A model generated the notes under the pieces. The model had not been told where the DNA came from. It worked only from the letters and a program-made list of their open reading frames with translations, and did not search any database. From Amycolatopsis sp. 195334CR (GTDB lineage Bacteria; Actinomycetota; Actinomycetes; Mycobacteriales; Pseudonocardiaceae), in the NCBI RefSeq assembly GCF_017309385.1, contig NZ_JAFJMJ010000002.1, forward strand, positions 2,666,001 to 2,730,000: 64,000 nt of DNA, in the 5' to 3' direction. Below are positions 21,507 through 41,471 of this stretch, in pieces. Within the stretch, counting starts at the first letter, position 1, and every line of letters starts with the position of its first letter. Made by a program: the position numbers and the translations under genes.

Positions 21507-21509
21507 GGC

Positions 21510-23141: not shown

Positions 23142-23176
23142 AGCCGCAACGGTAAGCACGGGACGCCGTCCCGGGA

Positions 23177-23224
23177 TTGTCCGATCGGCTAGGCTTGATG
23201 CCGATTCCCTGTTCGATCGGACAA
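23177..23224. promoter_or_regulatory. 11-bp inverted repeat operator between pruA and pucR-type gene
   Basis: TTGTCCGATCG (23177-23187) and CGATCGGACAA (23214-23224) are perfect inverted copies separated by 26 bases, in the divergent promoter region. Each arm also contains the self-complementary CGATCG. The arm centres are 37 bp apart, about three and a half helical turns. This is the probable site for the PucR-type activator of proline catabolism. A TAGGCT hexamer (23190-23195) between the arms could be the -10 box of the regulator gene. Confidence 0.62.
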
Positions 23225-23228
23225 CACC

Positions 23229-24809: not shown

Positions 24810-24921
24810 GCTGCCTGGTCACCCAAAACCGTTGCGTGTCAACAGAATCTGACCGTCGTTGGCCACTCGATCACCTGAACGGCGGTCCCGGCACGCGGCC
24901 CGGGCGCTGAAAGGTGAGCTC

Positions 24922-26136
24922 ATGCGGCGAATCCTGGCCGCCGGGGCGATCGCGGTGGCGGCCCTCGGCGTAGTGACGGCATCGAGCAACGCCCAGAGCC
25001 CCGAGCTTCCCGGCAACTGGGTCGGCACGTGGGCGGCGTCCCCGGCGTCCGGGGTGTCCGGTACCGAGGGCGGTTATCCGAACTACTCCATCCGCAACCT
25101 GGTGCACACCAGCGTCGGCGGCGCGTCGGTGCGGGTCCGGCTGTCCAACGCCTTCGGCACCCAGCCGCTGACGCTGGGCAAGGTGACCGTGGCGGTCGCG
25201 GCCGAGCCGAACACCCCGCGGGCCGTGCCCGGCACCATGCGCACGCTGACCTTCGGCGGCGCGGAGACCACCGTGGTGCCCGCGGGCGCGGAGGTGCTCA
25301 GCGATTCGGCGCTGCTGCGGGTGCCGCAGGACGGCGACCTGCTCGTCACCACCTACACCCCGACGCCGTCCGGTCCGGTCACCCACCACCCGGCCGCGTT
25401 GCAGACCTCGTTCTTCACCAAGGCCGGTGACCGCGCGGCCGAGGAATCCGGCGCGTCCTTCACCGAGAAGACGTCGGTGTGGCACTACGTGTCCGGGGTG
25501 GACGTGCAGAGCCCGGCACGCGGCTCGGTGGTCACCCTCGGCGACTCGATCACCGACGGCGTGGGCGGCACGGCGGGCACCAACCAGCGCTGGCCGGACT
25601 TCCTCAGCGACCGGCTGATCGCGGCCGGGCGCCCGCTCGGTGTGCTCAACGCGGGCATCAGCGCGAACCGGCTGCTGCTCGACGTCCCGGGTTCGGGTGC
25701 GGGCCGCAACGCGCTGGCGCGCCTCGACGAGGACGTGCTCAGCCTCGGCGGGGTGAAGACGCTGGTGGTGCTGGAGGGCATCAACGACATCCAGCAGACC
25801 CCGCACCAGACCGATCCGGCGCAGATCATCGCGGCGTACCGGCAGCTCATCGCGCAGGCGCACGCGCGCGGCATCCGGGTCATCGGCGGCACGCTGACCC
25901 CGTTCAAGGGCTGGCGCGTCTACGACGAAACCCTGGAAGCCACCCGGCTCGCGGTGAACGAGTTCATCCGCCACGGCGGCGCCTTCGACGGCGTGGTCGA
26001 CTTCGACGCGGCGATCCGGGACCCGCAGGACCCGCTGCGCATGCTGCCCGCCTACGACTGCGGCGACCACCTGCACCCGAACGACGCCGGCTTCCGCGCC
26101 ATGGCGGACGCCGTCGACCTCGCCCTGCTGCGCTGA
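24922..26136 (+). CDS. Secreted SGNH/GDSL-family hydrolase
   Basis: An exported esterase-type hydrolase of 404 residues. The signal peptide is MRRILAAGAIAVAALGVVTA, cut near SSNAQS. SGNH blocks: VVTLGDSITDGVGG (nucleophile serine), LNAGISANRLL (glycine/asparagine block), LEGINDIQQ (block III asparagine) and DHLHPNDAG (catalytic Asp-His). A long N-terminal beta-rich domain (about residues 30-190) precedes the catalytic block. Start at ATG 24922, after AAAGGTGAG; the upstream in-frame opening has no ribosome site and would bury the signal. Likely substrate is an acylated polysaccharide or lipid, not determinable. Confidence 0.92.
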   Translation: MRRILAAGAIAVAALGVVTASSNAQSPELPGNWVGTWAASPASGVSGTEGGYPNYSIRNLVHTSVGGASVRVRLSNAFGTQPLTLGKVTVAVAAEPNTPRAVPGTMRTLTFGGAETTVVPAGAEVLSDSALLRVPQDGDLLVTTYTPTPSGPVTHHPAALQTSFFTKAGDRAAEESGASFTEKTSVWHYVSGVDVQSPARGSVVTLGDSITDGVGGTAGTNQRWPDFLSDRLIAAGRPLGVLNAGISANRLLLDVPGSGAGRNALARLDEDVLSLGGVKTLVVLEGINDIQQTPHQTDPAQIIAAYRQLIAQAHARGIRVIGGTLTPFKGWRVYDETLEATRLAVNEFIRHGGAFDGVVDFDAAIRDPQDPLRMLPAYDCGDHLHPNDAGFRAMADAVDLALLR

Positions 26137-26286: not shown

Positions 26287-26490
26287 GTGTCCATGGTGGT
26301 CGTAGGGATCGATCCGCACAAGTCCAGCCATACCGCGGTCGCGGTCGATCAGACCGGGCGCAGGCTCGCCCAGAAAACCGTCACCTCTGACCGGGACGGG
26401 CTGCTGCGACTGCGGTCCTGGGCCTCCCAGTTCGGCACCGGGCCACGCTGGGCCGTCGAGGACGGCCGCAGCGGGCCCGGGCGACGCTAG
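26287..26490 (+). pseudogene. IS110-family transposase, N-terminal remnant
   Basis: About 67 codons of the N-terminal DEDD/RuvC-like domain of an IS110-family transposase: VVVGIDPHKSSHTAVAVDQTG, with the first catalytic aspartate in GIDPHK, then WAVEDGR, where the match to the family breaks off and the frame stops at 26490. Full transposases of this family are about 330-400 residues, so this is a dead fragment. The stop overlaps the end of the GH109 gene on the other strand. It marks a past insertion or rearrangement at the edge of the carbohydrate locus. Confidence 0.78.
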
Positions 26491-27884
26491 GGCTTCGGCG
26501 AGTCGATGCCGGCGTGCGGGGTCTTCCAGTTGTTCCGGGTGAAGTCCGGGAACGGGATCGACGCGCCCTTGTGCTTCACCGACATCACGCCCAGCGGCAG
26601 CGGGGCGCTCCACGCCGCCGAGTCGTAGACGTCGATGTCCGGCGGCAGCCCCAGCGTCAGGCACTGCACCAAGCGCCACAGCATGATGTAGTCCATCCCG
26701 CCGTGCCCGCCGCTGCCGCCGCCGACCTCGGTCCACAGCCAGTGGTCGAACGACTTGTACGCGTCCCACGAACCCCACTTGTGCCCGCTGTGGTCGGGTT
26801 CGACGTAGATCCGCGCCGGGTAGTCCTCGAAGGCGCCCTTCGTGCCCGCGATGTAGTTCAGCCTGCTGTACGGGTGCGGGCTCGACACCCCGTGCACCAG
26901 GTGGATCACCCGGCCCTTCGCGGTCTGGATCAGGCTCATCGTCACGTCGCCCTTGACGTAGGTCTCCTGCCAGGACGAGTCGCTGCGCGGCACGTGCGCC
27001 TCGCGGTATTCGGCCAGGCCGAGCGCGGGCGTGCTCATCGTGCTGATCCGCTCCAGCCGGTCACCGCGGTGGATGTCCATGTACGCCGCCACCGGGCCGA
27101 GCCCGTGCGTCGGGTACAGGTCGGTGTTCAGCTTCGTGTGCCACGTCCGCCGCCACTCGCCGGCGTAGTACGTGTCGGAGAACAGCAGCTCGCGCAGGTC
27201 GTGCAGGTAGGCCCCCGAACCGTGCAGCACCTGCCCGAACTTCCCGGCGTGCACCATCCGCAGCGCGCGCATCTCGTTCTGGCCGTAGGAGCAGTTCTCC
27301 AGCTGGATGCAGTGCCTGCCGGTCTGCTCGGAGGTGTCGACCAGCTCCCAGAGGTCCTTCACGGTGATCCCGATCGGGCACTCCACCCCGACGTGCTTGC
27401 CCGCGCGCATCGCCGCCAGCGCCATCGGCGTGTGCCATTCCCACGGCGTGGCCACGTAGACGAAGTCCACGTCATCCCTGGCCACGAGCTGCTCGAAGGC
27501 GTGCTCGCCGTTGGTGTAGACGGCCGGCTCCGGCTGACCCGCGGCGGTGACCACCTTCGCCGCCTTCGCCGCGAACTCCGGCCGGGTGTCGCACAGCGCG
27601 GTGACCTTCGCGCCCGGCACGCCGAGCAGGTCGGTCAGCATGCCAGCCCCGCGGTTGCCGAGGCCGATGATGCCGAAGCGCGGGTTCGGCGTCGCCTGGA
27701 ACGGCACGCCGATCATCGACTTGCCCCGCCGCTTCGGCCACGATCCCGAGTCCTCACCCACCGCCGGGATGCTATCGGCGCCCGCGGTGGCCTGCCCGCC
27801 GAGCGTGACCAGCCCCGCGCCCATGCCCGCGATGGCCGTGTTCCGCAGCAGCGAGCGCCTCGACACACCAGGTTGCTCAGCCAT
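26487..27884 (-). CDS. GH109-type alpha-N-acetylgalactosaminidase (Gfo/Idh/MocA fold), Tat-exported
   Basis: An NAD-dependent glycosidase of 465 residues. The N-terminus has a twin-arginine signal (SRRSLLRNTAIAGMGAG). A Rossmann motif GIIGLGNRGAGM follows, and the body matches GH109: ENCSYGQNEMRALRMV, GSGAYLHDLREL, DLYPTHGLGPVAAYMDIHRG, then GGHGGMDYIMLWRLVQC and DIDVYDSAAWSAPL. GH109 enzymes release terminal alpha-GalNAc by a redox mechanism with bound NAD. The start at 27884 has GGAGGAG before it. Immediately downstream of the GH101 gene on the same strand, so both exported enzymes should be co-expressed against mucin-type O-glycans. Other Gfo/Idh dehydrogenase functions are less likely given the Tat signal and the motif series. 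Confidence 0.87.
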   Translation of the reverse strand: MAEQPGVSRRSLLRNTAIAGMGAGLVTLGGQATAGADSIPAVGEDSGSWPKRRGKSMIGVPFQATPNPRFGIIGLGNRGAGMLTDLLGVPGAKVTALCDTRPEFAAKAAKVVTAAGQPEPAVYTNGEHAFEQLVARDDVDFVYVATPWEWHTPMALAAMRAGKHVGVECPIGITVKDLWELVDTSEQTGRHCIQLENCSYGQNEMRALRMVHAGKFGQVLHGSGAYLHDLRELLFSDTYYAGEWRRTWHTKLNTDLYPTHGLGPVAAYMDIHRGDRLERISTMSTPALGLAEYREAHVPRSDSSWQETYVKGDVTMSLIQTAKGRVIHLVHGVSSPHPYSRLNYIAGTKGAFEDYPARIYVEPDHSGHKWGSWDAYKSFDHWLWTEVGGGSGGHGGMDYIMLWRLVQCLTLGLPPDIDVYDSAAWSAPLPLGVMSVKHKGASIPFPDFTRNNWKTPHAGIDSPKP

Positions 27885-27901
27885 GTTCTCCTCCAGATCC
27901 C

Positions 27902-30829
27902 TCAGCCGGCGAGGCCGAGATCGAAAACGGTGAAGTCGTCCAGGACCAGGTCGGCCTGTCCCGGGGTGTCCACGTCGTGCTTGCGCAGGCCCACCCAGGC
28001 GTCGGGACCGTCCACTGTGAACTCCTGGGTGAACCGCGTGGTCTCCGCCCGCGCGGGCAGCGGGGTCGCCTGCTCGGCGGTGCCCGCGCCGGTGATCCAC
28101 GAGTACTGGCCCGCGTGCCCGTTCTGGTACGAGAACTCGACGCGGTACCGGTGCCCCGGTTCGAAGCGCACGGTCTGCGGCACGGTCCGGTAGACCAGCC
28201 CGGCGTTCTCCTCGTGTGCCTTGAGCGACCAGTTCCCGGCCAGCACGTCGTCGACGAGCTTCCCGTGCCAGCCGCGCTGGGTGTAGGGCGCGTTCAGCTC
28301 GGCCAGGTGCGTGCGCGGGTCGGTGCTGCCCCCGGCGTCGCCCTTGACGAACGGCCCCCAGCCCTGGTCGACGTGCTCGAAGTCCTCGTTGACCACGCCC
28401 GGCCCGGCGACGCGCTCGGTCCGCACCACGCGCACGTCGTCGAACCGCACCCCGGCACCGCCGGTGAGGCGCAGCACGGGCCGCTCCCCCGCCTTGACGT
28501 CGAAGAGCACTCGCATGCGCTGGAAGTGCGTGCCCTGCTTCTCGTCGGCGGCCACGTAGTTCTTGGCGGTGGACCGATCGACGAAGTTCTCGGCGTCACC
28601 GACCGCGATCTCCGCCCGCTCACCACCGGTTTCGACCCACACCGAGGCGCTGTACGTGCCCGGCTCCAGACCGCTCACCTGCTGTTCCAGGGCGCCTGGG
28701 CCGTCGAATCGCGCGACCGTGTGCCCCTGCGCGGTCCGCTCGGCGTGCACGTCGCCCTGCGGGCGCCATCGGCGCAGGTCCGCCGCGTTGAACCCCGGAT
28801 CGACCAGCCCGGTGCCCTCGCCCCAGCGCGGATCGGCGGTCCGCCCGCCCGGCCCATCCAGCACGTACGGCACCCCCGGTTCGGCGTCGAGCGCGACCTT
28901 GCCGTTCTGCGGCCGCACCACCCCGGTGACGACCCGGCCGGTGTCGGTCAGCCGGTACACGGTCAGCTCGCGGTTCCCCGGGACCGTCCATTCGGTACGG
29001 CCGCCCGCCGGGTTGTAGTGGTAGTACTTGCCCTTCCACGGCAGCAGGTACTTGTCGCCGTCGAGCACCTTCGCGTCCCCGGCGAAGATCTCCCGCTTGC
29101 CCGCGGCGTCGGTTCCGCGCACCCCGCCGGTGAAGGTGATCTCGTGCTCGTCCCAGCGCAGGATCCGCTGCTGCTGCAGGAACTTCGCGGGCAGGTTGTT
29201 GGTCCAGATGTTGGTGTAGAAGGTGGTCCAGTCGGTCTCGCCGGTCCAGCCTTCGAACTCCTCGATCCGGGTGTTGCCGAGGATCGGGTGCGGGTTCCAC
29301 ACGTCGCGCTGGTCGTTGCGCAGGAACCGGATGATCCGCGAGTTCAGGCCCTTGTTGGTCTGGCCGCCGTAGTCGAGGTCGTTGGCCCAGTGCGACCACA
29401 GCGAGGAGCGCTCCAGCTTGTCGGACCACTCGGTGCCGACCGTCCAGCCCTGGTCGCGCAGTTCACGCAGCATGTGGTCGGCGACGTACCCGTGGTTGCG
29501 GTAGACGTCGATGTAGAGGAAGTCCAGGTTCGGATGGGTTTCCTCGCGCAGCTGGCGGAAGCGCTTCGCCAGTTCGCCGGAGGCGTTGTCCCGGCGCTGG
29601 TCGATCTCCCACGACTGGTCGAGCCAGTTCCAGCCCTCGCGGTTCACGTCCACCAGCTGCTCGTTGAACGCCCTGGCCTCCGGGTAGGACTCCGTGGCGT
29701 TGACGTGCACACCGAAGTCCGCGTTGAACTTCTCGCCTTCGGCCGCCAGCGTGTTCAGGTCCTTCAGCCCGCCGGCGCGCTCGTTGTAGTTGCCGCCGTA
29801 GTCCGGGTGCGCCGAGTCGTGGCCTTCGCTGCCGTACCCCTTGAGCACGGCCAGCTGCCCGAGGCCGTCGGTGGCCAGCGAGATCCGCTTGACGTCATCG
29901 AGCGTGCGCAGGAACGGGTGGGTGGCCTGGCTGGCGAAGTTGAACGGGATGTGGGTGATCACCCGGTCCGGCGTCTGCCCGGCACCGGGCGCGGTGATCG
30001 CGATGTCGCGGAAGGCGATCGCGCCGTCCTGCCAGTCGACCTTGCCGTCACCGTTGGCCTCGGGGGTGACCACGACCTTCGCCCACGGCAGTTCCTCGGT
30101 GGTCGCGGAACTCTCGGCGCGGTAGGTCCACTGGCCGCTCCAGAGGCCGACGCGGGTGGCGTCGCCTTCCTTGCGGGCCTGGTGCCACAGCCGGGCGTCG
30201 TCCCCGTTGGTCGCGCCGGATGGCTTGTCGTACACGGAGTTCGTCTCCACCGAGGCCGCCAGCGCTCCGGTGTGGACGATCCCGTACGAGGCACCGACCG
30301 GGTTAGGCTCGGCCGCCGTGCCCGGGGTCACCGCGGCGAACACGTCCGCGGTCCGGGTGGCGTTCGGGTCCAGCGTGGTGAACGCCGTCCCGGCACCGGG
30401 TTGTCCACTGGAGACGGACACCAGGTCGTGGCCGGGCAGGTCGAGGGTGCCGACCCGGAACTGCTCGGTGTCGGTGATCCGGTCGATCCGGAAGGTGGTG
30501 GCGCGGCGCTCGACCCGCAGGGACGCCTCGATCACCACCCCCGGCTGGTCGTCGAGGGTGAGCCGGTACCTGGCCACGCCATCGGTGACCGAACCTTCGC
30601 CGCTGACGTGGTGCGCCACGCCGTTGACGGTGATCGTGTCCAGTTCGGTGGCGCGGCCGTCCAGCGTCGCGCCGGTGGCGCGGTCGGTGTAGCGGTGCAC
30701 CACGGGGAAGTCGGCACCGACCGAGACCGCGAGTTCCGGGGACGAGATCTCCAGTGCGGACGGCTCGGCCGCCACCGCCGGAGCGGCCCCGGTGAACAGG
30801 ACCGCCACGAGGATCGAACGGGGAAGCAT
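27902..30829 (-). CDS. GH101 endo-alpha-N-acetylgalactosaminidase, secreted
   Basis: A secreted glycosidase of 975 residues. GH101 enzymes release intact Gal-beta-1,3-GalNAc (core 1) from serine or threonine of glycoproteins. The signal peptide is MLPRSILVAVLFTGAAPAVA. GH101 landmarks: GSEGHDSAHPDYGGNYN, FGVHVNATESYPEA, GWNWLDQSWEIDQRRD, the likely nucleophile aspartate in DFLYIDVYRNHG (about residue 439) and the likely acid/base glutamate in VGTEWSDKLERSS (about 466). A carbohydrate-binding-like region at about 620-960 contains NFVDRSTAKNYVAAD. The first ATG at 30889 adds 20 polar residues ahead of the signal and lies in the promoter spacer, so 30829 is preferred. First gene of an operon with the GH109 gene. 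Confidence 0.9.
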   Translation of the reverse strand: MLPRSILVAVLFTGAAPAVAAEPSALEISSPELAVSVGADFPVVHRYTDRATGATLDGRATELDTITVNGVAHHVSGEGSVTDGVARYRLTLDDQPGVVIEASLRVERRATTFRIDRITDTEQFRVGTLDLPGHDLVSVSSGQPGAGTAFTTLDPNATRTADVFAAVTPGTAAEPNPVGASYGIVHTGALAASVETNSVYDKPSGATNGDDARLWHQARKEGDATRVGLWSGQWTYRAESSATTEELPWAKVVVTPEANGDGKVDWQDGAIAFRDIAITAPGAGQTPDRVITHIPFNFASQATHPFLRTLDDVKRISLATDGLGQLAVLKGYGSEGHDSAHPDYGGNYNERAGGLKDLNTLAAEGEKFNADFGVHVNATESYPEARAFNEQLVDVNREGWNWLDQSWEIDQRRDNASGELAKRFRQLREETHPNLDFLYIDVYRNHGYVADHMLRELRDQGWTVGTEWSDKLERSSLWSHWANDLDYGGQTNKGLNSRIIRFLRNDQRDVWNPHPILGNTRIEEFEGWTGETDWTTFYTNIWTNNLPAKFLQQQRILRWDEHEITFTGGVRGTDAAGKREIFAGDAKVLDGDKYLLPWKGKYYHYNPAGGRTEWTVPGNRELTVYRLTDTGRVVTGVVRPQNGKVALDAEPGVPYVLDGPGGRTADPRWGEGTGLVDPGFNAADLRRWRPQGDVHAERTAQGHTVARFDGPGALEQQVSGLEPGTYSASVWVETGGERAEIAVGDAENFVDRSTAKNYVAADEKQGTHFQRMRVLFDVKAGERPVLRLTGGAGVRFDDVRVVRTERVAGPGVVNEDFEHVDQGWGPFVKGDAGGSTDPRTHLAELNAPYTQRGWHGKLVDDVLAGNWSLKAHEENAGLVYRTVPQTVRFEPGHRYRVEFSYQNGHAGQYSWITGAGTAEQATPLPARAETTRFTQEFTVDGPDAWVGLRKHDVDTPGQADLVLDDFTVFDLGLAG

Positions 30830-30852
30830 GGTGAAACCCTTCTGCCACCGAG

Positions 30853-30896
30853 CGTTCTTTCCTGATTTTTCTAGGCTTGTTTCACTCATAAGTCAA
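30853..30896 (-). promoter_or_regulatory. Promoter and putative DeoR sites upstream of GH101
   Basis: On the minus strand, TTGACT (30891-30896) and TAGAAA (30868-30873) are exactly 17 bases apart. The spacer contains GTGAAACAAG (30876-30885), and just past the -10 box lies GGAAAGAACG (30853-30862), a related decamer 23 bases further, about two helical turns. The first matches motifs at the other two promoters of the locus, so repression by the DeoR proteins is likely. Confidence 0.6.
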
Positions 30897-30933
30897 CATC
30901 TGCGAGCAGATTCGAGCAGGAAGGAGCAGGCCG

Positions 30934-31719
30934 TCAGACCGTGCGCAGGCGCACGCCCGCGGCCGCGAACCCGGCTTCGACCTCGGCCACCACCGGGGCG
31001 TCGGTGACCACGAGGTCCACGTCCGCGATCGGGCAGATCCGCGCGAAGGCGCGCTTGCCCAGCTTCGACCCGTCCGCGGCGACCACCACCCGTGCCGCGC
31101 GCTCGACCATCAGCCGGTTGATGTCGGCCTCGCCCTCGTGGTGCGCGAAGGCACCGGCCACCGGATCGATCCCGTCCACGCCGAGGATGAGCAGGTCCAG
31201 CGAGATGTCCGCGAGCACGCCGGTGGCCAGCGGCCCGGTCAGCTCGAACGAGCGCGGGCGGGCCACGCCGCCGGTGACCACCAGCTTGAGGTGCTGGCGC
31301 ACGGCGAGTTCACCGGCGATGTTGAGCGCGTTGGTCACCACGGTCAGCGCCGGCCTGCCCGGCCGGTGGTCCAGTTCGGCCCTGGCCGCGATCGCCCTGG
31401 CGATCTCGGTGGTCGTGGTGCCGCCGTTCAGCCCGACCACCGCACCCGGTTCGACCAGCAGCGCCACGTTGCGGCTGATCCGGGACTTCTCCGGCGCCTT
31501 GAGCGCGCTCTTGTACCGCAGCGGCAGGTCGTAGGAGACGTGCGTGGCGATGGCACCGCCGCGCGTGCGGATCAGCAGCTGCTGCTCCGCCAGGTGGTCC
31601 AGATCGCGGCGGATGGTCGCGGCCGAGACCGCGAGTTCCTCGGCCAGCGCCTCGACCACCACCTTGCCGCGCTCCCCGACCACCGACAGCAGCCCGCTGA
31701 GCCGCTCGTGCCGGTTCAA
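30934..31719 (-). CDS. DeoR-family sugar-phosphate-responsive repressor (copy 1)
   Basis: A 261-residue DeoR/GlpR regulator: N-terminal HTH (VSAATIRRDLDHLAEQQLL, wing RTRGGA) and C-terminal sugar-phosphate sensor of the ribose-isomerase type (VVGLNGGTTTTEIA, VVTNALNIAGEL). It starts with TTG at 31719; this is supported by its paralogue, which begins MDRHERL where this one begins MNRHERL. The start overlaps the stop of the DUF5107 gene by four bases. Closely similar along its length to the regulator at 38028. Expected ligand is a phosphorylated hexose or tagatose derivative from the locus (inference). Confidence 0.92.
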   Translation of the reverse strand: MNRHERLSGLLSVVGERGKVVVEALAEELAVSAATIRRDLDHLAEQQLLIRTRGGAIATHVSYDLPLRYKSALKAPEKSRISRNVALLVEPGAVVGLNGGTTTTEIARAIAARAELDHRPGRPALTVVTNALNIAGELAVRQHLKLVVTGGVARPRSFELTGPLATGVLADISLDLLILGVDGIDPVAGAFAHHEGEADINRLMVERAARVVVAADGSKLGKRAFARICPIADVDLVVTDAPVVAEVEAGFAAAGVRLRTV

Positions 31720-33481
31720 GGAGCCGCCATCCGGAAGTCGTACCGCCGGGGCAGCGGCCGGGCACCGCCCAGCGCCCGCTGGATCTCCGCCCAGGTGTCC
31801 GAAAGGGACGTGTCCCCCTCACGGATGTCGGGCACGTCGAAGCCCGAGAGGTAGATGTCCTCCGCCCCGGCCGCGTCACCGGCCGCCAGCAACGCGCGGG
31901 CGGTGAGCAGTTCGATCCGGCCGGTGCGCACGGGCACCGCCGCGAGCAAAGCGAGCGCTTCTTCGGCCTGCCCGGCGGCGAGCGCGGCCTCGATCGCCTC
32001 GACGGCCAGCTCGGCCGGAGCCAGCTCGAACGCCCGATTCAGCAGCGACGCGTCGTCGGTGGCGACCGCGAGATTCCTCAGTGCCCAGGGGTTCTCGGCT
32101 TCGTCGAGCGACGCGCGCCAGGCCTGTTCGGCGGCGGTTTCATCCCCGGCGTACCAGTGGGCGACGCCCCGGTGGTACCAGACCAGCCAGTTCGGCTCGG
32201 CCGCCTCCAGCTCCGCCCGCCAGGTCACCAGTGTGCCGTCCGGCGGAGTGAGCGGGTCCGGTGCGGCCATCTTGCCGGTCAGCAGGTCGAGCCACGGTTG
32301 TTGCCGCTCGCCGAGCGTGCTGTCCGGGAACGGGGTGCCCGGGAGCGATCTCGGGGTGCGCCGCTGTTCGAGCGCGCCCCAGCCGGAGCCGGTGTGCAGC
32401 CACTCCCCCGGCTCCTCGTCGGCCACGACCTGCCACTCCGGGTACGAAGCATCGACCGGCCCGTAGGTCTCCAGCCACTCCCGCGACTCACCACCGGGCA
32501 GGCGCAGGTGCTCCAGCTGCGTGCGCGCCAACCCCGCCTGGATCTCCAGATAGCCATGCTCCGAATCGGGTGAAAGCCACTCCTGCCAGCGCCTGCCGCC
32601 CTCCGAGCTACCCCAGACGAACAGCTTCCGCCCGCGCAGCAACCCCGTCGACGTCTGGCGCAGGCCGTACCCGGTTTCGTCGACCGCCGCGATCCACGGC
32701 CGTTGCCCGGGTTCGAGGTCGAAGAAGAAGTCGGCGGCGTGCTCGTAGGAGTTCGGATCGATCTCCGCGGGCATCGGCACCCGGTCGAGGTGGCCACCGT
32801 AGCCGTAGTGCCAGGCGTGCCGCGCGGGCGCGAGCACCCGCGTGCCCGGGGTCTGCGGCACCGCGATGTTCGACCACCAGTACAGCGGCACCTCGTGCTC
32901 GTGCGGATTCCGGACCCGCACGCCGACCAGCAGCACCGGCGACTCCTCCGGCAGCCGGAAGTCCAGCTGGTACGGCAGGTTCCTGGTGCGTTCCCACTCC
33001 CACAACCGGAGCCCGTCGGTGCCGACGCGCGCGGCGTGCATCGGCTCGCAGGTCATCGTGGTGTGCCCGGTGCTGCCGAGGTTCCACTCGACCCCACCGG
33101 CGAACCAGGCGTCCCGCAACGCCAGGTTCGCCGGTTGCAGTACCGGGTTGCGGAACAGCAGCTCGCGGTCGCGGACCTTGTCGTGCAGCGAATACAGACG
33201 GCCACCGAGCGAGGGCAGCACGGTCGCGCGCAGCTTCGCGTTCTCCAGCACGAGCGCGGGCAGCGCCTGCTCGGTGCGTTCGCGGCCGTACCCGTTCCGC
33301 ACCAGGCACGGCAGTACGCTGTCCAGCTTCCCGTACCGCACACCGTCGGCCAGGTCCGGCGGTAGTTCGTCCACATTGGTCACCTGCTGCGCGGCGGTCA
33401 GCGGGCGCAGCGGCGGCAGCGGGTTCTCCGGCCCGATCGACGCCACGGGCAGCACCAGCTCGGTGCGGAAGACACGCGTCA

Positions 33482-33482
<1 letters not shown>
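31716..33482 (-). CDS. DUF5107 protein with C-terminal TPR-like region
   Basis: A 588-residue protein without signal peptide. The N-terminal two thirds match DUF5107 with a galactose-mutarotase-like supersandwich: LRATVLPSLGGRLYSLHDK, AWFAGGVEWNLGSTGHTT, VPLYWWSNIAVPQTPGT. The C-terminal 180 residues are alanine-rich helical pairs of TPR type (AVATDDASLLNRAFELAP). The family has no established activity. It sits between the importer ATPase and the DeoR gene, sharing a one-base TGATG junction with the former and a four-base overlap with the latter. An intracellular sugar-acting role (epimerase or glycosidase on the imported disaccharide) is inference from fold and context. Confidence 0.8.
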
Positions 33483-34561
<1,079 letters not shown>

Positions 34562-34574
34562 AACTTGTCTCCCT

Positions 34575-35510
34575 TTACTTGCCGGCGCCGAGGGTGAGGC
34601 CGGTGATGATGCGCCGGGCCAGGACGAGGTAGAGCACCAGCATCGGCAGCACCACGATCGCCACGCCGGCGATCAGGCCGCCGTACTCGCTCTGGTAGCT
34701 GGCCGCGCCGTAGAAGGTGAACAACGCCCGCGACAGGGTGAAGTCGGCGTTCTCCTGCAGGAACACGATCGCCAGCAGGGTCTCGTTCCACAGGCCGATC
34801 AGGTTCAGGATCAACGCGGTGATCAACCCGCCGCGGGCCAGCGGCAGCATGATCGAGACGAAGGTCCGCAGCGGGGAGGCGCCGTCGATCGCGGCGGCCT
34901 CCTCCATCTCGTCGGGCAGCGAGCGGAAGAAGCCGGTCAGCAGGAACACGGTGAACGGCAGCGACAGCGCCACGTAGATGAGGAACAGCCCGAACAGGTT
35001 GTTGGCCAGGCCGATCTTCGCCATGTTCACGAACAACGGGATGATCACCGTCTGGAACGGCACGCCCATGCCGATCGCGACGAACCCGGTCATCCCGCTC
35101 GCCCCGCGCACGCCGAGCCGGGTCAGCGCATACGCGGCGGGAGCCGAGACCACCACGGTGACGATCGCGGCGGCACCGACCAGCAGCACGGTGTTGACGA
35201 ACGCCGAGCCCAGCCCGGCCTGGTTCCACGCGTAGACGTAGTTCCGGAACGGATCCCCGGCGACGAACCACTGGCGCGGCAGCTGGAACGGCTGGGTGAA
35301 GATCTCGACCGGTGTCTTGAACGAGGAGGAGAGCAGCCAGTACAGCACGAAGAGGTTGAACGCGGTGAACGCCCACACCACCACCGTGCCGACCACCTTC
35401 AGCGGGCTCAGCCTCCGCGACCCCGGCGGCGGCTTCGGCTTGCGCGGCGGCTTGCCCCGCGGCTTGGCGGCCGGTTCGCGCGGCGGCGCGGTCAACTCCA
35501 CTGTGGACAC
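34575..35510 (-). CDS. Sugar ABC transporter permease (MalG type)
   Basis: Inner-membrane permease of 311 residues with a basic, proline-rich cytoplasmic head (about 1-35), six hydrophobic helices and the EAA loop EEAAAIDGASPLRTFVSIML that docks to the ATPase. The start is GTG 35510 (MSTVELTAPPREP), eight bases after the stop of the first permease, with AGGAG overlapping that stop. Longer in-frame readings cover the upstream permease gene in another frame and are rejected. Confidence 0.93.
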   Translation of the reverse strand: MSTVELTAPPREPAAKPRGKPPRKPKPPPGSRRLSPLKVVGTVVVWAFTAFNLFVLYWLLSSSFKTPVEIFTQPFQLPRQWFVAGDPFRNYVYAWNQAGLGSAFVNTVLLVGAAAIVTVVVSAPAAYALTRLGVRGASGMTGFVAIGMGVPFQTVIIPLFVNMAKIGLANNLFGLFLIYVALSLPFTVFLLTGFFRSLPDEMEEAAAIDGASPLRTFVSIMLPLARGGLITALILNLIGLWNETLLAIVFLQENADFTLSRALFTFYGAASYQSEYGGLIAGVAIVVLPMLVLYLVLARRIITGLTLGAGK

Positions 35511-35518
35511 GTGAACTC

Positions 35519-36460
35519 CTAGAACTGGATGGCGTCGCGGCGCATGAGGCGGCGCAGCAGCAGGACGAGCACGGTGACCAGTGCGATCATCGCCACCGCG
35601 CAGGCGCAGGCGGCACCGAAGTCCGGGGTGCCGTTCGAGCCGAACGACCGGTCGAACACGTAGATGCCCAGCGTCCAGGCGTTGTTCGGCGGCGAGTACG
35701 TGCCCGGCCCGGCGAGCACGAAGACCAGTTCGAAGATCTTCAGCGCGTTGATCGTCCACAGCACCCCGGCCACGCCCACCACGTCCCAGGTCAGCGGCAG
35801 CGTGACGTTGCGGAACTTCTGCCACGGCGAGGCCCCGGCCAGTTCGGCGTCCTCGTACAGGTAGGGCGGGATGCGGTCGACCGCGGCCATCAGGATGGTG
35901 ATGTAGAACCCCGAACTCGCCCACATGATCGCCGCGGTGACCGCCCAGGTCACGTTGGCCGGGTCGAGGAACTTCGCCGCGCTCAGCCCGACGCTCTCCA
36001 GCAGGAAGTTCGCCAGTCCCTGCTTGCCCGGCTGGTACTTGAACACGAAGCCGAGGAACATGCCCAGCGCCACCGGCGCCACGATGTTCGGGAAGAACAG
36101 GATCGCGCGCACCAGCTTCCCGCCCCGCATGTCCCGCAGCACCATGGTGAACAGGAACGCCAGCACGAAGGTGCCGATGCCACCGACGAACACGTAGATC
36201 AGCGTGTTGCGGAACGAGTACTGGAACGAGTCGCTGGCCCACATGCGGGTGTACTGGGTGACCCCGGAGAACTCCGGGCTGTCGCCAGCCCCGGCCCAGC
36301 TGGTGAAGCTGAGCACCACGGTGGCGATCGTCGGCAGCACCAGGAAGATCAGGTACAGCGCGAGCGCCGGCGCGACGAACGGCCAGAACAACCGGCGCTT
36401 GCGCACCTCGTGCTCACCGTCCGTGCCGCGCCGGGCCCGCGGTAGCGCTGTGGTGGTCAT
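35519..36460 (-). CDS. Sugar ABC transporter permease (MalF/UgpA type)
   Basis: Inner-membrane permease of 313 residues; first hydrophobic helix FWPFVAPALALYLIFLVLP, six helices overall, EAA loop YEDAELAGASPWQKFRNVTL. The ATG at 36460 (MTTTALPRARRGTDGE) overlaps the stop of the binding-protein gene as ATGA. Forms the transmembrane pore with the MalG-type partner. Confidence 0.94.
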   Translation of the reverse strand: MTTTALPRARRGTDGEHEVRKRRLFWPFVAPALALYLIFLVLPTIATVVLSFTSWAGAGDSPEFSGVTQYTRMWASDSFQYSFRNTLIYVFVGGIGTFVLAFLFTMVLRDMRGGKLVRAILFFPNIVAPVALGMFLGFVFKYQPGKQGLANFLLESVGLSAAKFLDPANVTWAVTAAIMWASSGFYITILMAAVDRIPPYLYEDAELAGASPWQKFRNVTLPLTWDVVGVAGVLWTINALKIFELVFVLAGPGTYSPPNNAWTLGIYVFDRSFGSNGTPDFGAACACAVAMIALVTVLVLLLRRLMRRDAIQF

Positions 36461-37860
36461 GAGCCCTGCGCGGCCCAGAACTCGGCGGACTTCGCGGCCA
36501 GGCCGTCGACGAACTGCTGGGGGTTCACCCGGCCCTTGAGCAGGTCGAGGTTGAGCGGGTCGAACACCTCGGTGGCCCACTTGCCGCCCGCCAGGCCGTC
36601 GAGCCCGTCGTACTGCAGGACGTGCTCCTTCTTCGGGTCGTCGATGGCGGCCTTGATGTCCTTCAGGTCGTCCGGGACCGGCAGGTCCGCGCGCGGCACC
36701 AGGTTGTTGGCCACCACGGTCATGCCCAGCAGGATGTCCTTGTTCAGCGTGTAGGCGATGAACGCCTTCGCCGCCTCGGTGTGCTTGGCCGCCTTGGGGA
36801 TGGAGAAGCCGATCGACATCTGCTCGACCGTGTCGTGCGTGGCGCCCTCGGGCATCGGGAACTGGAACGAGCCGTAGTCGATCTTGGCCGCGCCGCCCTG
36901 CTTGGTCAGGTACTCGCGCGTCTCGCTGGGCACCCAGCTGCCGACGTAGAGGAAGCGCGCCTCACCGTCGGCCCAGCGCTGCTGCACCTGCGGGAACTTC
37001 GCCGCGTCCCAGCCCTCGATGAAGTACGGCGGGATCTTCGCGGTCTCCTCGGCCGCCCGGCGGAACCCGGGATCGGTCAGCCAGCCCTGGCCGGTGCGGT
37101 CGCTCGCGGCCCGGTATAGCCCGCCCGCGCCGACGAACCGCTCGGCGAGCTGGGTGTAGAAGTACATGTTGTAGAAGGAGATGTCGCCGTCCTGGGCGAC
37201 CGCGGCCTTGCCGTCGGCCTTCGCCTTGTCGAACAACGCGGTCAGCTCGGCCATTGTGGACGGTGGCCGGACGTCGCCGGCGGTGGCCCTGTCGTACCAC
37301 CAGGCGCTGGCCATCATCTCGTAGGGCACCATGAAGTTCGCCCCGGCCGCGTCCTTGTTCTGCGGGAAGTCGTACGAGCTGGGCGCCAGCACGTCCTTGA
37401 CCGTCTTCTCGCCCTCACCGACCTTCATCGCGAACACGTCGTCGACGCTCTGCGTGCCGCCCGGCTGCACGATGGCCGCGCTGACCTTGCTGACGTCCTG
37501 GTCGAACAGGTCGGGCACGGTGCCGGTGTTCAGCGCGGGCACCAGGTTGGTGGTGTAACCCTTGCGGCCCAGCCACTCCACGTTGACCTTGACCCCGGTC
37601 TTCTCGGTGAAGCAGCGCATCGCCTTCTGCAGCACCTTGCCCTGCGGCTCGTCGGCGGTCCACATCGACCAGTAGGTCAGTTCCTTGTCCGACTGCGGTT
37701 TGACGCCGGGCTCGGGGCACGGCGCGGTGAGGAACTCCTCGGCGCCGGGCAGCGCGTTCTGCGCCCCGGGCGTGCCCTCCTGGCCGGTCGGCGTGCCGCA
37801 CGCGGCGAGCGTGAACGCCAGTCCCGCCGCGAGTACGAGCTTGCCACGAGCTGATCTCAT
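36457..37860 (-). CDS. Sugar ABC transporter substrate-binding lipoprotein
   Basis: Family-1 extracellular solute-binding protein of 467 residues. Signal and lipobox: MRSARGKLVLAAGLAFTLAAC. The body has the expected fold segments (ELTYWSMWTADEPQG, VNVEWLGRKGY, ARFLYVGSWVPSET). The ATG at 37860 is chosen because AGGTGG lies eight bases before it; a GTG three codons earlier is in frame. First gene of the importer operon that runs through to the DeoR gene at 30934. Likely ligand is the core-1 disaccharide or GalNAc (inference from the two glycosidases). Confidence 0.93.
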   Translation of the reverse strand: MRSARGKLVLAAGLAFTLAACGTPTGQEGTPGAQNALPGAEEFLTAPCPEPGVKPQSDKELTYWSMWTADEPQGKVLQKAMRCFTEKTGVKVNVEWLGRKGYTTNLVPALNTGTVPDLFDQDVSKVSAAIVQPGGTQSVDDVFAMKVGEGEKTVKDVLAPSSYDFPQNKDAAGANFMVPYEMMASAWWYDRATAGDVRPPSTMAELTALFDKAKADGKAAVAQDGDISFYNMYFYTQLAERFVGAGGLYRAASDRTGQGWLTDPGFRRAAEETAKIPPYFIEGWDAAKFPQVQQRWADGEARFLYVGSWVPSETREYLTKQGGAAKIDYGSFQFPMPEGATHDTVEQMSIGFSIPKAAKHTEAAKAFIAYTLNKDILLGMTVVANNLVPRADLPVPDDLKDIKAAIDDPKKEHVLQYDGLDGLAGGKWATEVFDPLNLDLLKGRVNPQQFVDGLAAKSAEFWAAQGS

Positions 37861-37917
37861 CGCCACCACCTGATCGATTCGACAAACTTCCAGCGGGATC
37901 GCTGCGCGTTAGTGCGC

Positions 37918-37946
37918 AGTTTTGTCTTCGTTCAAGCACGTGTCAA
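37918..37946 (-). promoter_or_regulatory. Importer operon promoter with DeoR-type motif in spacer
   Basis: On the minus strand TTGACA (37941-37946) precedes AAAACT (37918-37923) by 17 bases. The spacer holds TTGAACGAAG (37926-37935), in the same register as GTGAAACAAG in the GH101 promoter. A nearby 6-bp dyad CTGCGC/GCGCAG (37902-37919) lies downstream. Confidence 0.5.
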
Positions 37947-37995
37947 CAGTCACTGTGCAACAAATTGCGAAATCGTGCTCGGAGCGGCGGTGCGG

Positions 37996-38009
37996 GTGCG
38001 GGCCCGCAC
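37996..38009. promoter_or_regulatory. 14-bp perfect palindrome upstream of second DeoR gene
   Basis: GTGCGGGCCCGCAC is fully self-complementary and lies 18 bases before the ATG of the second DeoR gene, just upstream of a TAGTAC hexamer (38013-38018) that could be its -10 box. It could be an autoregulatory site, but GC-rich palindromes also arise by chance here. Confidence 0.35.
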
Positions 38010-38027
38010 TCGTAGTACTTTCGGCGG

Positions 38028-38813
38028 ATGGATCGGCACGAGCGACTGAACGCACTGCTCGACATGGTCGGGCAACGGGACAAGATCGACGTCGACGAGA
38101 CCGCCGCCGAGCTCGACGTCTCCCCGGCCACCATCCGCCGCGATCTCGACCACCTCGCCGAGCGGCAACTGCTCACCCGGACGCGTGGTGGCGCGGTGGC
38201 CAGCAACGTCGCCTACGACCTGCCGTTGCGGCACAAGGCCGCGCGCAACGCCCCGGAGAAGCAGCGGATCGCCGTGGCGGCGGCGAAACTGGTCGAGCGC
38301 GGCATGGTGATCGGGCTCAACGGGGGCACCACGCTGACCGAGGTCGGCCGGGCCGTGGCCACCCGCCCGGACCTGGGCGAGCGCGGGGACTCGCCGTCGC
38401 TGACCGTGGTCACCAACGCGCTGAACATCGCCAACGAGCTGGCCGTGCGGCCGAACATCAAGATCGTGGTGACCGGCGGGGTGGCGCGCCCGCAGTCGTT
38501 CGAGCTGACCGGCCCGTTCGCCACCAAGATCCTCGACGAGATCACGCTGGACCTGGTGCTGCTGGGGGTGGACGCGGTGGACCCGCTGCGCGGTGCCTAC
38601 GCCCACCACGAGGGCGAGGCCAGCATCAACCGGCTGATGGTGTCGCGGGCGCGGCACGTGGCGGTGGTGGGCGACAGCTCCAAGCTCGGCGGGCACGCCT
38701 TCGCCCGGATCTGCGCCACCAACGAGGTGCACACCCTGGTCACCGACACGGCGGCGCCGGACAAGACGATCGAGGCGTTCCAGGCCGAAGGCGTCCGCGT
38801 CATCACGGCTTGA
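38028..38813 (+). CDS. DeoR-family sugar-phosphate-responsive repressor (copy 2)
   Basis: A 261-residue DeoR/GlpR regulator, the same length as and closely similar to the one at 30934: HTH segment VSPATIRRDLDHLAERQLLT, wing RTRGGAV, sensor segments VIGLNGGTTLTEV and VVTNALNIANEL. It is divergent from the binding-protein gene, so it probably controls the importer operon and itself. ATG start at 38028. Confidence 0.93.
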   Translation: MDRHERLNALLDMVGQRDKIDVDETAAELDVSPATIRRDLDHLAERQLLTRTRGGAVASNVAYDLPLRHKAARNAPEKQRIAVAAAKLVERGMVIGLNGGTTLTEVGRAVATRPDLGERGDSPSLTVVTNALNIANELAVRPNIKIVVTGGVARPQSFELTGPFATKILDEITLDLVLLGVDAVDPLRGAYAHHEGEASINRLMVSRARHVAVVGDSSKLGGHAFARICATNEVHTLVTDTAAPDKTIEAFQAEGVRVITA

Positions 38814-38840
38814 GCCAGCTCGCGACGCGTCGGCCCGTCA

Positions 38841-38878
38841 CGAAGGTGGCTTTCGAGGCGTCCCGAAAGCCACCTTCG
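38841..38878. terminator. GTGGCTTT/AAAGCCAC-core intergenic hairpin, copy 2
   Basis: Perfect 15-bp arms CGAAGGTGGCTTTCG (38841-38855) and CGAAAGCCACCTTCG (38864-38878) with an 8-base loop, lying between the convergent DeoR and aldolase genes. Its place makes it a probable two-way terminator. Confidence 0.78.
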
Positions 38879-38885
38879 GGACAGC

Positions 38886-39719
38886 TCAGTGCTGAAGCAG
38901 GCGCAACAGCCGGGCCACCTCGCCGGCCACCGCTTCCCGGCCCGCGCTGAGGTACTTGCGCGGGTCGACCGTGTCCGGGCGGTCCGCGAGCTGGTCGCGC
39001 ACCCCGGCGGTGAACACCTTGTTCAGCTGCGTGGCGACGTTGATCTTCGTCAGCCCCCGTGCCACGGCGGTGGCCAGGTCCTCGTCGGCCACGCCGGACG
39101 AGCCGTGCAGCACCAACGGCACCGGGACCTCCTGGTGCAGGGCGCTGATCAGGTCGAAGTCGAGTTCGGCGTCCCTGGTGAGCATCGCGTGCGAACTGCC
39201 GACGGCGACCGCCAGCGCGTTCACCCCGGTCGACTCGACGAACGCGCGCGCCTGGGCCGGATCGGTCCGCGCACCGGGCGCGTGCACCCCGTCCTTGCCG
39301 CCCACCTCACCGAGTTCGGCCTCCACCCACACCCCCTGGGCGTGGCAGTACGCCGCCACCTCCCTGGTCGCCGCCACGTTGTCCGCGTAGTCCAATGTGG
39401 ACCCGTCGTACATCACCGAGCCGAAGCCGAGTTCCACCGCCTCGTGCACCAGTTCCGGCTCGTCGGCGTGGTCGAGGTGCACCGCGACCGGCACGTCCGC
39501 ACCACGCGCCGCGGCCACCGCGGCGGCCCCGATCGGGGCGAGCGAGCCGTGGTAGCGCACCGCGTTCTGGCTCAGCTGCAGGATGACCGGCAGCCCGGCC
39601 CGCTCGGCGCCGTCGACGATCGCGCTGATGTGCTCCAGCAGGATGGCGTTGAACGCACCGCAGCCGGTGCCGAGTTCGGCCGCCGGCCCGACGATGTCAC
39701 CCGTTGACACCAGTGGCAT
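38886..39719 (-). CDS. Class II ketose-bisphosphate aldolase (tagatose/fructose type)
   Basis: A zinc aldolase of 277 residues that splits tagatose- or fructose-1,6-bisphosphate to dihydroxyacetone phosphate and glyceraldehyde 3-phosphate. Motifs: VAVHLDHADEPEL (zinc histidine and catalytic aspartate), VEAELGEVGGKDGV, VPLVLHGSSGVADEDL and GLTKINVATQLNKVF. It is the last gene of the isomerase-kinase-aldolase operon and overlaps the kinase by 23 bases. The GatY/KbaY-type role on tagatose is favoured by the neighbours, not proved by sequence. Confidence 0.9.
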   Translation of the reverse strand: MPLVSTGDIVGPAAELGTGCGAFNAILLEHISAIVDGAERAGLPVILQLSQNAVRYHGSLAPIGAAAVAAARGADVPVAVHLDHADEPELVHEAVELGFGSVMYDGSTLDYADNVAATREVAAYCHAQGVWVEAELGEVGGKDGVHAPGARTDPAQARAFVESTGVNALAVAVGSSHAMLTRDAELDFDLISALHQEVPVPLVLHGSSGVADEDLATAVARGLTKINVATQLNKVFTAGVRDQLADRPDTVDPRKYLSAGREAVAGEVARLLRLLQH

Positions 39720-40602
39720 GGGTTTCCTCCACGGTCACGGCGCCCACTTCGCGCCGGTAGTGATCAAGATCGACGTCGCCGGCCAGCGGGCCGAGCACCG
39801 CGGCGGCGGACAACGCCACGGCGTGCCGCAGCACCGCGGGCCAGTCCTGGTGCAGGTTCAGCGCGATGCCCGCCACCGCCGCGTCCCCGGCGCCGGTGGT
39901 GTTGCCGTCCAGTGCGCGCGAGGGCCGCGCGAGCCAGGTTCCCCGCTCGGTGACGGCCAGCATTCCCTCCGCGCCTTGGGAAACGAGCACCGCGCCCGCG
40001 CCCCGCGCGCGCAGTTCGTGGGGATCGTCGGTGAGCTCACGCAGTTCGTCCGCGTTGGGCTTCACCACGTCCGGTCCCGCCTTGATGCCTTCCCGCAGTG
40101 CGTCGCCCGAGGTGTCCAGCACCACCGGCACTCCGGCCTTCCTGGCCAGGCCGATGAGCCGCGCGTAGCCGTCGGCGGGCACACCGGGTGGCAGGCTGCC
40201 GGAACAGACCAGCGCGCTCGCGTGGTCGAGCTGCCGCGCCACCTCCTCCGCCAGCTCGTTCCATTCCACTTCGGACAGCCGGGGCCCGGGTTCGTTGACC
40301 AGGGTGACCTCGCCGGGCGCCACCAGCGCCGTGGTGCGGCGGGTGACCCCGGCGATCGCGGTCAGCCGATGCGGAATGCCCGCCGCGGTCAGGTCCTCGC
40401 GGATCAGTTCGGCGTCGGTGCCGCCGACCGAGCCCAGCGCCAGCACCGGGTGGCCGAGCGCGTGCAGCACCCTGGCCACGTTGACGCCCTTGCCCCCGGC
40501 CCGTTTCCGCACCTCGGCCGGCCGGATGACGGCACCGGGTTCCAGTGCGCCGACCCGGTAGGTGACGTCCAGCGCGGGATTGGCGGTGACCGTGACGATC
40601 AC
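39697..40602 (-). CDS. PfkB-family hexose-phosphate kinase (tagatose-6-P / fructose-1-P type)
   Basis: A ribokinase-like sugar-phosphate kinase of 301 residues: MIVTVTANPALDVTYRV, the RAGGKGVNVARVLHALG substrate loop, and the anion hole/catalytic aspartate in GNTTGAGDAAVAG. It groups with the LacC/FruK-type enzymes by length and N-terminus. The GTG start at 40602 shares one base with the stop of the SIS gene (TAGTG). Predicted to make tagatose 1,6-bisphosphate for the aldolase downstream (inference). Confidence 0.9.
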   Translation of the reverse strand: MIVTVTANPALDVTYRVGALEPGAVIRPAEVRKRAGGKGVNVARVLHALGHPVLALGSVGGTDAELIREDLTAAGIPHRLTAIAGVTRRTTALVAPGEVTLVNEPGPRLSEVEWNELAEEVARQLDHASALVCSGSLPPGVPADGYARLIGLARKAGVPVVLDTSGDALREGIKAGPDVVKPNADELRELTDDPHELRARGAGAVLVSQGAEGMLAVTERGTWLARPSRALDGNTTGAGDAAVAGIALNLHQDWPAVLRHAVALSAAAVLGPLAGDVDLDHYRREVGAVTVEETHATGVNG

Positions 40603-41471
40603 TACGCGAGCACTACGGAACGGGTGAGGTTGCGGGGGTTGTCCGGGTCGAGGCCGCGGTCCGCGGCCAGCGCACCGGCCAGGCGCTGGGCCCGCACCAG
40701 ATCGGCCATCGGGTCCAGGTCGTCGTCGACGAACAACGCGCCCGCCGCCCGGACCTGGTCGGCCAGTCCCTCCGGTGCGGTGCCGAACATCCAGGTCACG
40801 CGGCCCGGCTCGGCGATGCTGATCGGCCCGTGGCGGTACTCCAGCGCCGGGTAGGACTCCGCCCAGCTGACCGAGGCTTCGCGCAGTTTGAGCGCGGCTT
40901 CGGCGGCCAGGCCGACGGTCCAGCCGGTGCCCAGGAAGGTGAACTGCCCGGCCGCCCGCACGTCGGTGTCCACAGTGGTCTCCAGCACGCGCTCGGCGTC
41001 GGCGATGGCGCGGTCCAGGTTCTCGCCGAGGTGCGCGCGGAGCAGGGCCAGCGTCGCGGTGGCGAACCGGGTCTGCACCACGGAACGCTCGTCGCTGAAG
41101 GACAGGTCGACCACCGCGCCCGCGACGGCTTCGATCTCGGCGGGCACGCCGGTGAGCACCGTGGCCGGGGTGTCCAGCTGCCCGAGCAGCCGGTGGATCT
41201 CCGTGGTGGTGCCGGACCTGCTGATCGCGAGCACCTGGTCGTACCGCCTGCCGAGCGGGAACTCCGAGGCGGCGAACGCGTCGGTTTCGCCGAGCCCGGC
41301 GCGTTCCCGCAGCGCGGCGTAGGCCTGCGCGACGAACCACGAGGTCCCGCAGCCGACCACGGCCACCCGGCGGCCCGGGCGCGGCAGCAGGCCCTCCACG
41401 TCGGCGGCGAGTTCCACGGCTTGGCGCCAGTGCGCGGGCTGGCTGGCGATCTCCGCATCCATCTCTGACAT
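40602..41471 (-). CDS. SIS-domain sugar isomerase/deaminase (AgaS-like)
   Basis: A 289-residue protein with two SIS domains: VAVVGCGTSWFVAQAYAAL and LAISRSGTTTEIHRLLG in the first, FTFLGTGWTVGLAAEAALKL and SYPALEYRHGPISI in the second, as in AgaS and the isomerase half of GlmS. AgaS converts galactosamine 6-phosphate to tagatose 6-phosphate and ammonia, which suits a locus releasing GalNAc. The ATG at 41471 is seven bases from the -10 box, so it is read as leaderless; ATG 41462 and GTG 41519 are alternatives. Confidence 0.85.
   Translation of the reverse strand: MSEMDAEIASQPAHWRQAVELAADVEGLLPRPGRRVAVVGCGTSWFVAQAYAALRERAGLGETDAFAASEFPLGRRYDQVLAISRSGTTTEIHRLLGQLDTPATVLTGVPAEIEAVAGAVVDLSFSDERSVVQTRFATATLALLRAHLGENLDRAIADAERVLETTVDTDVRAAGQFTFLGTGWTVGLAAEAALKLREASVSWAESYPALEYRHGPISIAEPGRVTWMFGTAPEGLADQVRAAGALFVDDDLDPMADLVRAQRLAGALAADRGLDPDNPRNLTRSVVLA

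Follow-up and report, generated by a model that had tools for sequence, protein, structure and literature searches.

Can an actinomycete living outside the gut feed on the sugars of mucin-type O-glycans? The question is raised by a locus at positions 26487–41471 of a 64,000-nucleotide stretch (hereafter, the window) from the 9.9 Mb genome of Amycolatopsis sp. 195334CR (contig NZ_JAFJMJ010000002.1, positions 2,666,001 to 2,730,000 of the forward strand). Gene families, operon order and conservation were read from sequence, and from these the substrate of the importer, the directions of the intracellular steps and the regulation are predicted. The locus is very probably a scavenging system for mucin-type O-glycans, i.e., those built on alpha-linked N-acetylgalactosamine (alpha-GalNAc). 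A sequence-only reading of the same DNA had proposed an alpha-GalNAc/core-1 utilisation locus; this is supported by the placement of its enzymes among hidden Markov models (HMM) and Protein Data Bank (PDB) structures and by a catabolic core which travels with GalNAc-type enzymes in relatives. It would offer a plausible and testable O-glycan diet for actinomycetes outside the gut. No paper on such a locus in Amycolatopsis or Streptomyces was found among the titles listed from the open-licence literature.

The locus consists of two operons on the minus strand. The first encodes a solute-binding lipoprotein, two permeases, a MalK-type ATPase, a DUF5107 protein, a DeoR-family regulator, GH101 and GH109; the second encodes an SIS-domain protein, a PfkB kinase and a class II aldolase, and another DeoR gene lies divergently beside the first operon. 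Profile matches confirmed every gene that the sequence-only reading had named (GH101, GH109, the importer, two DeoR regulators, SIS, PfkB and class II aldolase), but its list had left out the DUF5107 gene between those of the ATPase and the DeoR regulator. Gene starts were assigned from translations, and export signals were judged by eye from the same translations, without a predictor. The features are as follows:

26487..27884, minus strand: GH109-type NAD-dependent alpha-N-acetylgalactosaminidase with a twin-arginine leader (PF21252 and PF01408; start MAEQPGV)
27902..30829 (reading frame open to 30889), minus strand: GH101 endo-alpha-N-acetylgalactosaminidase with a Sec-like leader (PF12905, PF18080, PF17451, PF21466, PF17974)
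30934..31719, minus strand: DeoR-family regulator 2 (PF00455, PF08220)
31716..33482, minus strand: DUF5107 protein of 588 aa, no leader seen (galactose-mutarotase-like domain and TPR-like repeats)
33482..34561, minus strand: MalK-type ABC ATPase (PF00005, PF17912, PF08402; its stop codon overlaps the DUF5107 start)
34575..35510, minus strand: ABC permease G (PF00528; start assigned at VSTVELTA)
35519..36460, minus strand: ABC permease F (PF00528; start assigned at MTTTALPR)
36457..37860, minus strand: solute-binding lipoprotein with a lipobox (PF01547, PF13416; closest NCBIfam models CPR_0540 and NgcE, each below cut-off)
37861..38027, no strand: promoter region between the importer operon and the divergent DeoR 1 gene (8-mers shared with regions upstream of SIS genes, suggestive only)
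38028..38813, plus strand: DeoR-family regulator 1 (PF00455, PF08220)
38886..39719, minus strand: class II fructose/tagatose-bisphosphate aldolase (PF01116, 288.6 bits; TIGR00167 above cut-off)
about 39697..40602, minus strand: PfkB-type hexose-phosphate kinase (TIGR03168, 281.6 bits, cut-off 216.4)
40602..41471, minus strand: SIS-domain protein occupying the position of AgaS, presumably a deaminase/isomerase of aminosugar phosphates (PF01380)

The GH101 product matched PF12905 with 410 bits (cut-off 25), four accessory domains also scored above their cut-offs, and the nearest PDB structures were those of the bifidobacterial and pneumococcal enzymes EngBF and SpGH101 (E~1e-143). It was the sole PF12905 match found in the genome. 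Its IDVY and TEW aligned with LDVW and TEW of EngBF, positions which we take to be the catalytic Asp nucleophile and the Glu acid/base. The protein also contains VDWQD, EGHD, VHVN and RFLRN, listed as GH101 motifs in PMC11861894. Motif 1 reads GWNWLDQ, as in EngBF, and not AWGWMNQ as in the POGases, a form detected in only one of 39 GH101 rows (L060) by a pattern that missed two rows. Because its motif 1 is EngBF-like, the window GH101 is suggested to set free the plain core-1 disaccharide. The GH109 product scored 167.6 bits with PF21252, and its best PDB matches were the GH109 enzymes 6t2b (E=3.9e-93) and 2ixa (7.5e-70), followed by glucose-fructose oxidoreductase (7e-13); the solved GH109 pair beat the other Gfo/Idh relatives shown by about 60 orders of magnitude or more. 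The ECP, ENCSY, HDLR, LYPTHG and PYSR stretches aligned with the active-site residues of 2ixa, presumably E, Y, R, Y, H and Y, all of which are kept. In a placement test set in advance, HMM and PDB results put both products in the families claimed for them. An ordinary dehydrogenase as the product of the GH109 gene was rejected on its model and PDB placement. Enzymes of the GH101 and GH109 families also serve as tools for glycoprotein work.

In the proposed mechanism, GH101 would free the core-1 disaccharide Gal-beta1,3-GalNAc from Ser/Thr outside the cell, GH109 would free single alpha-GalNAc, and the lipoprotein/permease/MalK-type importer would take the product in. The imported disaccharide would be split inside the cell, and genes elsewhere in the genome would supply a ROK kinase to phosphorylate GalNAc and NagA to remove its acetyl group. 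The SIS protein would then deaminate and isomerise galactosamine 6-phosphate (GalN-6-P) to tagatose 6-phosphate (tagatose-6-P), PfkB would convert this to the 1,6-bisphosphate and the aldolase would yield triose phosphates, with the DeoR pair repressing both operons.

The conservation of the locus was examined among related genomes. Searches detected GH101 in 20 of 390 family genomes and 17 of 394 class-sample genomes (the window genome counted in both), and DUF5107 in 77 of the 390 family genomes. DUF5107 was present in 17 of the 20 GH101 genomes versus 60 of the 370 GH101-free ones (Fisher p=1.5e-10, a value too small because the genomes are related); by genus, it occurred in five of six with GH101 versus five of 40 without (p=0.001). 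The two genes were close together in 10 of the 20 GH101 genomes, the window genome included. Of the remaining seven, three were examined (G548, G576 and G644); there DUF5107 belonged to a locus of its own that also held importer, SIS and aldolase genes, to which G548 and G576 added PfkB and GH109.

From a scan with the DUF5107 alignment, 80 named loci were taken (the best 80 of 307), and 21 of these held two or more of the genes for SIS, PfkB and aldolase (18 in Amycolatopsis, one in Kutzneria and two in Crossiella). Locus content was determined by tblastn (E<=1e-20, 33% identity, 40% coverage) with queries from the same loci, so that other enzymes are possible. All 21 core loci contained the importer trio and at least one outer enzyme: GH31 in 14, GH109 in five, GH101 in four and GH27 in two, with GH35 in none. 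A total of 20 carried GH101, GH109 or GH31, and the remaining one GH27 only. The closest PDB entry to the locus GH31 was an alpha-GalNAc-ase (E=7.6e-107; next group 1.4e-55), and subfamily GH31_18 gathers alpha-GalNAc-active members according to PMC13096917. As judged from gene content across relatives, the system is one metabolic core with exchangeable outer enzymes. The other 59 named loci did not show this core (12 of them had the importer trio only), and many copies in Kribbella and Actinacidiphila/Streptomyces stood alone in other conserved surroundings; DUF5107 is therefore not confined to the GalNAc pathway.

The GH101 tree, built of 39 rows without a topology test, bears on how the outer enzyme was acquired. 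Seven other Amycolatopsis proteins grouped with that of the window (100/100), and a wider group added core-less proteins of another family (100/98). A distinct clade (100/100) comprised the proteins of A. pittospori (L078), Kutzneria (L063), Catelliglobosispora (L134) and G399/G413, all located beside importer or catabolic genes. In A. pittospori L087, GH101 stood between DUF5107 and DeoR, whereas the equivalent A. orientalis locus, L084, had no GH101. The deep forks were weak (75/42 and 93/91) and two long branches met. On the simplest reading, GH101 would have been added to the catabolic core on two or more occasions, perhaps on three if L068 is counted.

Several points weigh against assigning the locus to O-glycan scavenging. 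The assignment is based on sequence, and the substrate of the importer is predicted. GH101 occurred without the catabolic core in many genomes, and L091 supports the assignment weakly because GH27 is mostly an alpha-galactosidase family. The SIS protein (PF01380, 27.6 bits) scored 27.6 bits with the AgaS model TIGR02815 against a cut-off of 529.2, and the label 'AgaS-like' given in the sequence-only reading had to be dropped. The models for PfkB and aldolase cannot tell tagatose from fructose phosphates, and the PfkB protein reached 155 bits with the lacC model, below cut-off. In five of the 21 core loci a ROK gene separated SIS from PfkB, and NagA was present in one (L091), leaving 16 without ROK and 20 without NagA. 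Both DeoR regulators remained below the cut-off of 260 of the AgaR model NF040755 (182.5 bits for DeoR 1 and 179.8 for DeoR 2).

The SIS protein was nearer to GlmS (80.4 bits) and GlmD (78.7 bits), missing the GlmD equivalog cut-off of 580. Its E198 and H214, presumably the GlmS-type catalytic pair, were invariant in a nine-row alignment of locus SIS relatives. In PMC5583593, AgaS with its own SIS_AgaS_like domain served as the signature for gut GalNAc pathways. A search with that signature would miss the window locus, because its SIS protein fails the AgaS model.

The kinase and the deacetylase were indeed missing from the window, as had been noted, and genome-wide searches revealed candidates for both. 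The candidate GalNAc kinase, a ROK protein encoded at C1:1811197-1812072, matched the in-locus L091 protein at 61% (next best 39%), and its gene overlapped a short second class II aldolase gene. The NagA protein at C1:2693663 scored above cut-off and matched the L091 in-locus protein at 75%, a similarity that does not separate GlcNAc-6-P from GalNAc-6-P use. ROK and NagA were both inside loci L081, L174 and L178. By domain and rank, these data suggest that the pathway is completed from genes at other loci. For the cleavage of Gal-GalNAc, no GH35 match was found in the window genome (control genomes were positive in four of 14) and no GH112 match either, but the control genomes gave none for GH112. 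LacZ-type GH2, represented by three weak PF02836 matches (21.5–26.5 bits), was set aside, and a single GH42 is a candidate for this step. The description of the locus as 'complete' was overstated, because the kinase and the deacetylase are not in the window and the cleavage step has no assigned enzyme.

The most constant unexplained member of the locus is the DUF5107 gene. Its product matched PF17128 with 85.4 bits (cut-off 24.4) and combines a galactose-mutarotase fold with helical repeats. The ATPase–DUF5107–DeoR gene order was retained in other species, so its placement is more than chance; A. albispora has the gene order of the window. The family is large, with 6347 of the 7997 scored candidates reaching E<=0.001, and the open-licence literature gave nothing on the function of DUF5107 nor, by listings, on that of yphG. 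Because the locus links this family to a definite sugar pathway, a single assay on a single member could be enough to assign the family. Two DUF5107 genes flanked one sugar importer in L140, L145 and L151 (Nonomuraea, Bailinhaonella), and in L144, L159 and L161 the gene adjoined a pair of large exporter-size ABC proteins. Long DUF5107 proteins of about 1100 aa were encoded near importers at L175:6197-9511 (minus) and L177:7190-10474 (minus), their neighbours being either a melibiase-like protein together with GH20 or a cellulase-like one. A DUF5107 match at G502:C4:7522283-7523089 had one in-frame TAG.

It is nearly an even call whether DUF5107 is an aldose 1-epimerase (mutarotase), or a sensor, for GalNAc or its phosphate, aiding the kinase or the regulators. 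The fold resembles the GalM type, but no Pfam aldose-epimerase model matched the protein at E<=10, and some genera have two copies per operon. Moreover, E. coli presumably has a separate mutarotase gene, yphB, beside its DUF5107 gene, yphG (PDB entry 3nre corresponds to b2544).

Less probably, DUF5107 could be an intracellular enzyme acting on imported Gal-beta1,3-GalNAc, i.e., a new hydrolase, phosphorylase or lyase in the place of GH35 or GH112. The association with GH101 among family genomes speaks for such a role, as does the lack of GH35 in the window genome. Two of the three DUF5107-free GH101 genomes (G399 and G413) had GH35 beside GH101 with SIS, ROK, NagA, PfkB and aldolase, L059 had an importer–GH35–GH101 arrangement without DUF5107, and the paired DUF5107 genes around one importer suggest separate enzyme roles. 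Among the 39 GH101 rows, DUF5107 was nearby in 11, GH35 was in the stretch in five and both occurred in none, but this exclusion is within chance, and G405 had GH101 with neither. The 60 family genomes with DUF5107 and no GH101 argue against the enzyme role, as do copies standing alone in Kribbella and in loci of the Streptomyces type. GH31, which would give free GalNAc, was paired with DUF5107 in 16 named loci, only L087 of which added GH101. The fold is that of a mutarotase with no glycosidase domain, no glycosidase matched across the whole DUF5107 model in its alignment rows, and GH42 could split the disaccharide instead. It is an unlikely, if far-reaching, proposal that DUF5107 founds a family of intracellular GalNAc-disaccharide enzymes, with a mutarotase fold that carries a lid of helical repeats, and takes over from GH35/GH112 in the O-glycan loci of actinomycetes; if true, the widespread family, that of E. 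coli included, would be glycoside-processing enzymes.

It is quite improbable that the locus serves alpha-galactose or galactosamine polysaccharides (e.g., fungal galactosaminogalactan) and not protein O-glycans: the soil habitat, the GH27 and further galactose-type enzymes adjoining L091 and L093, and the suitability of SIS, PfkB and aldolase for free galactosamine would fit, but all solved GH101 relatives act specifically on glycan-Ser/Thr, GH89 beside GH101 in L064 and L070 fits mucin, and the annotated stretches showed no hydrolase family for galactosaminogalactan, for which no search by name was made.

As for the regulation of the O-glycan locus, a perfect-dyad scan for DeoR operators yielded nothing convincing. 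An 8-mer enrichment returned words such as TTTCACGC upstream of genes for the binding protein (14), SIS (11), DeoR1 (3), GH101 (2) and GH31 (2); these counts come from closely related rows, uncorrected for kinship, and are suggestive only.

Additional genes were noticed around the outer enzymes of relatives. GH89 alpha-N-acetylglucosaminidase adjoined GH101 at L064:6605-8770 (minus) and L070:12624-14447 (plus), as expected for alpha-GlcNAc-capped mucin. An alpha-lytic-type protease prodomain with CBM5/12 lay beside GH101 at L064:13548-14984 (minus) and L070:6325-7524 (plus), and the protease may perhaps serve the glycoprotein backbone. The proteins encoded at L093:16218-18341 (minus) and L128:5401-8394 (minus) are secreted and have ricin-B or F5/8C lectin domains but no catalytic domain that could be recognised; such proteins were found in nine loci of cluster c34. 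In the window, the start of an IS110-type transposase (PF01548) at 26293-26487 (plus) was cut off at the end of the GH109 gene, a sign of an earlier insertion at the end of the operon. The region 20580-26136 contained ordinary neighbours, namely proline dehydrogenase, aldehyde dehydrogenase and a PucR-type regulator, then a GDSL lipase. An Rfam search of 22000-45000 gave no match, and no tRNA was found within the window.

Among known systems, the bifidobacterial galacto-N-biose/lacto-N-biose pathway (EngBF, LnbABC, LnbP; PMC5583593) resembles the locus in its outside GH101 and its ABC importer for the disaccharide. In contrast to its phosphorylase route, the window has downstream genes of the tagatose-6-P type and DUF5107 in the operon, and the window genome, like the controls, gave no GH112 match. 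The Gnb operon of Lactobacillus and Streptococcus (GnbPTS, intracellular GnbG, AgaS and NagA) shares the logic of GalNAc to GalN-6-P to tagatose-6-P and has an intracellular Gal-GalNAc hydrolase, according to PMC5583593. Its PTS is replaced here by an ABC importer and a ROK kinase, and the SIS protein lies outside the AgaS family. GH35 beside GH101 in L081, L178 and L059 resembles the Gnb arrangement, GnbG presumably being a GH35 enzyme, whereas the window has DUF5107 and no GH35. The Bacteroides thetaiotaomicron polysaccharide utilisation locus BT4240-50 likewise joins O-glycoprotein processing to a GalNAc kinase, but it differs in its SusD-type uptake, peptidase and beta1,3-galactosidase, and no GH101 is named in the part of PMC11992087 consulted. 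The Actinomycetota POGases also belong to GH101; apart from motif 1, the window enzyme is shorter than those described in PMC11861894. Among GalNAc pathways, the locus fits the known aga/gnb type in a variant form, of specialist interest for its exchangeable outer enzymes, its non-AgaS isomerase and its link to DUF5107.

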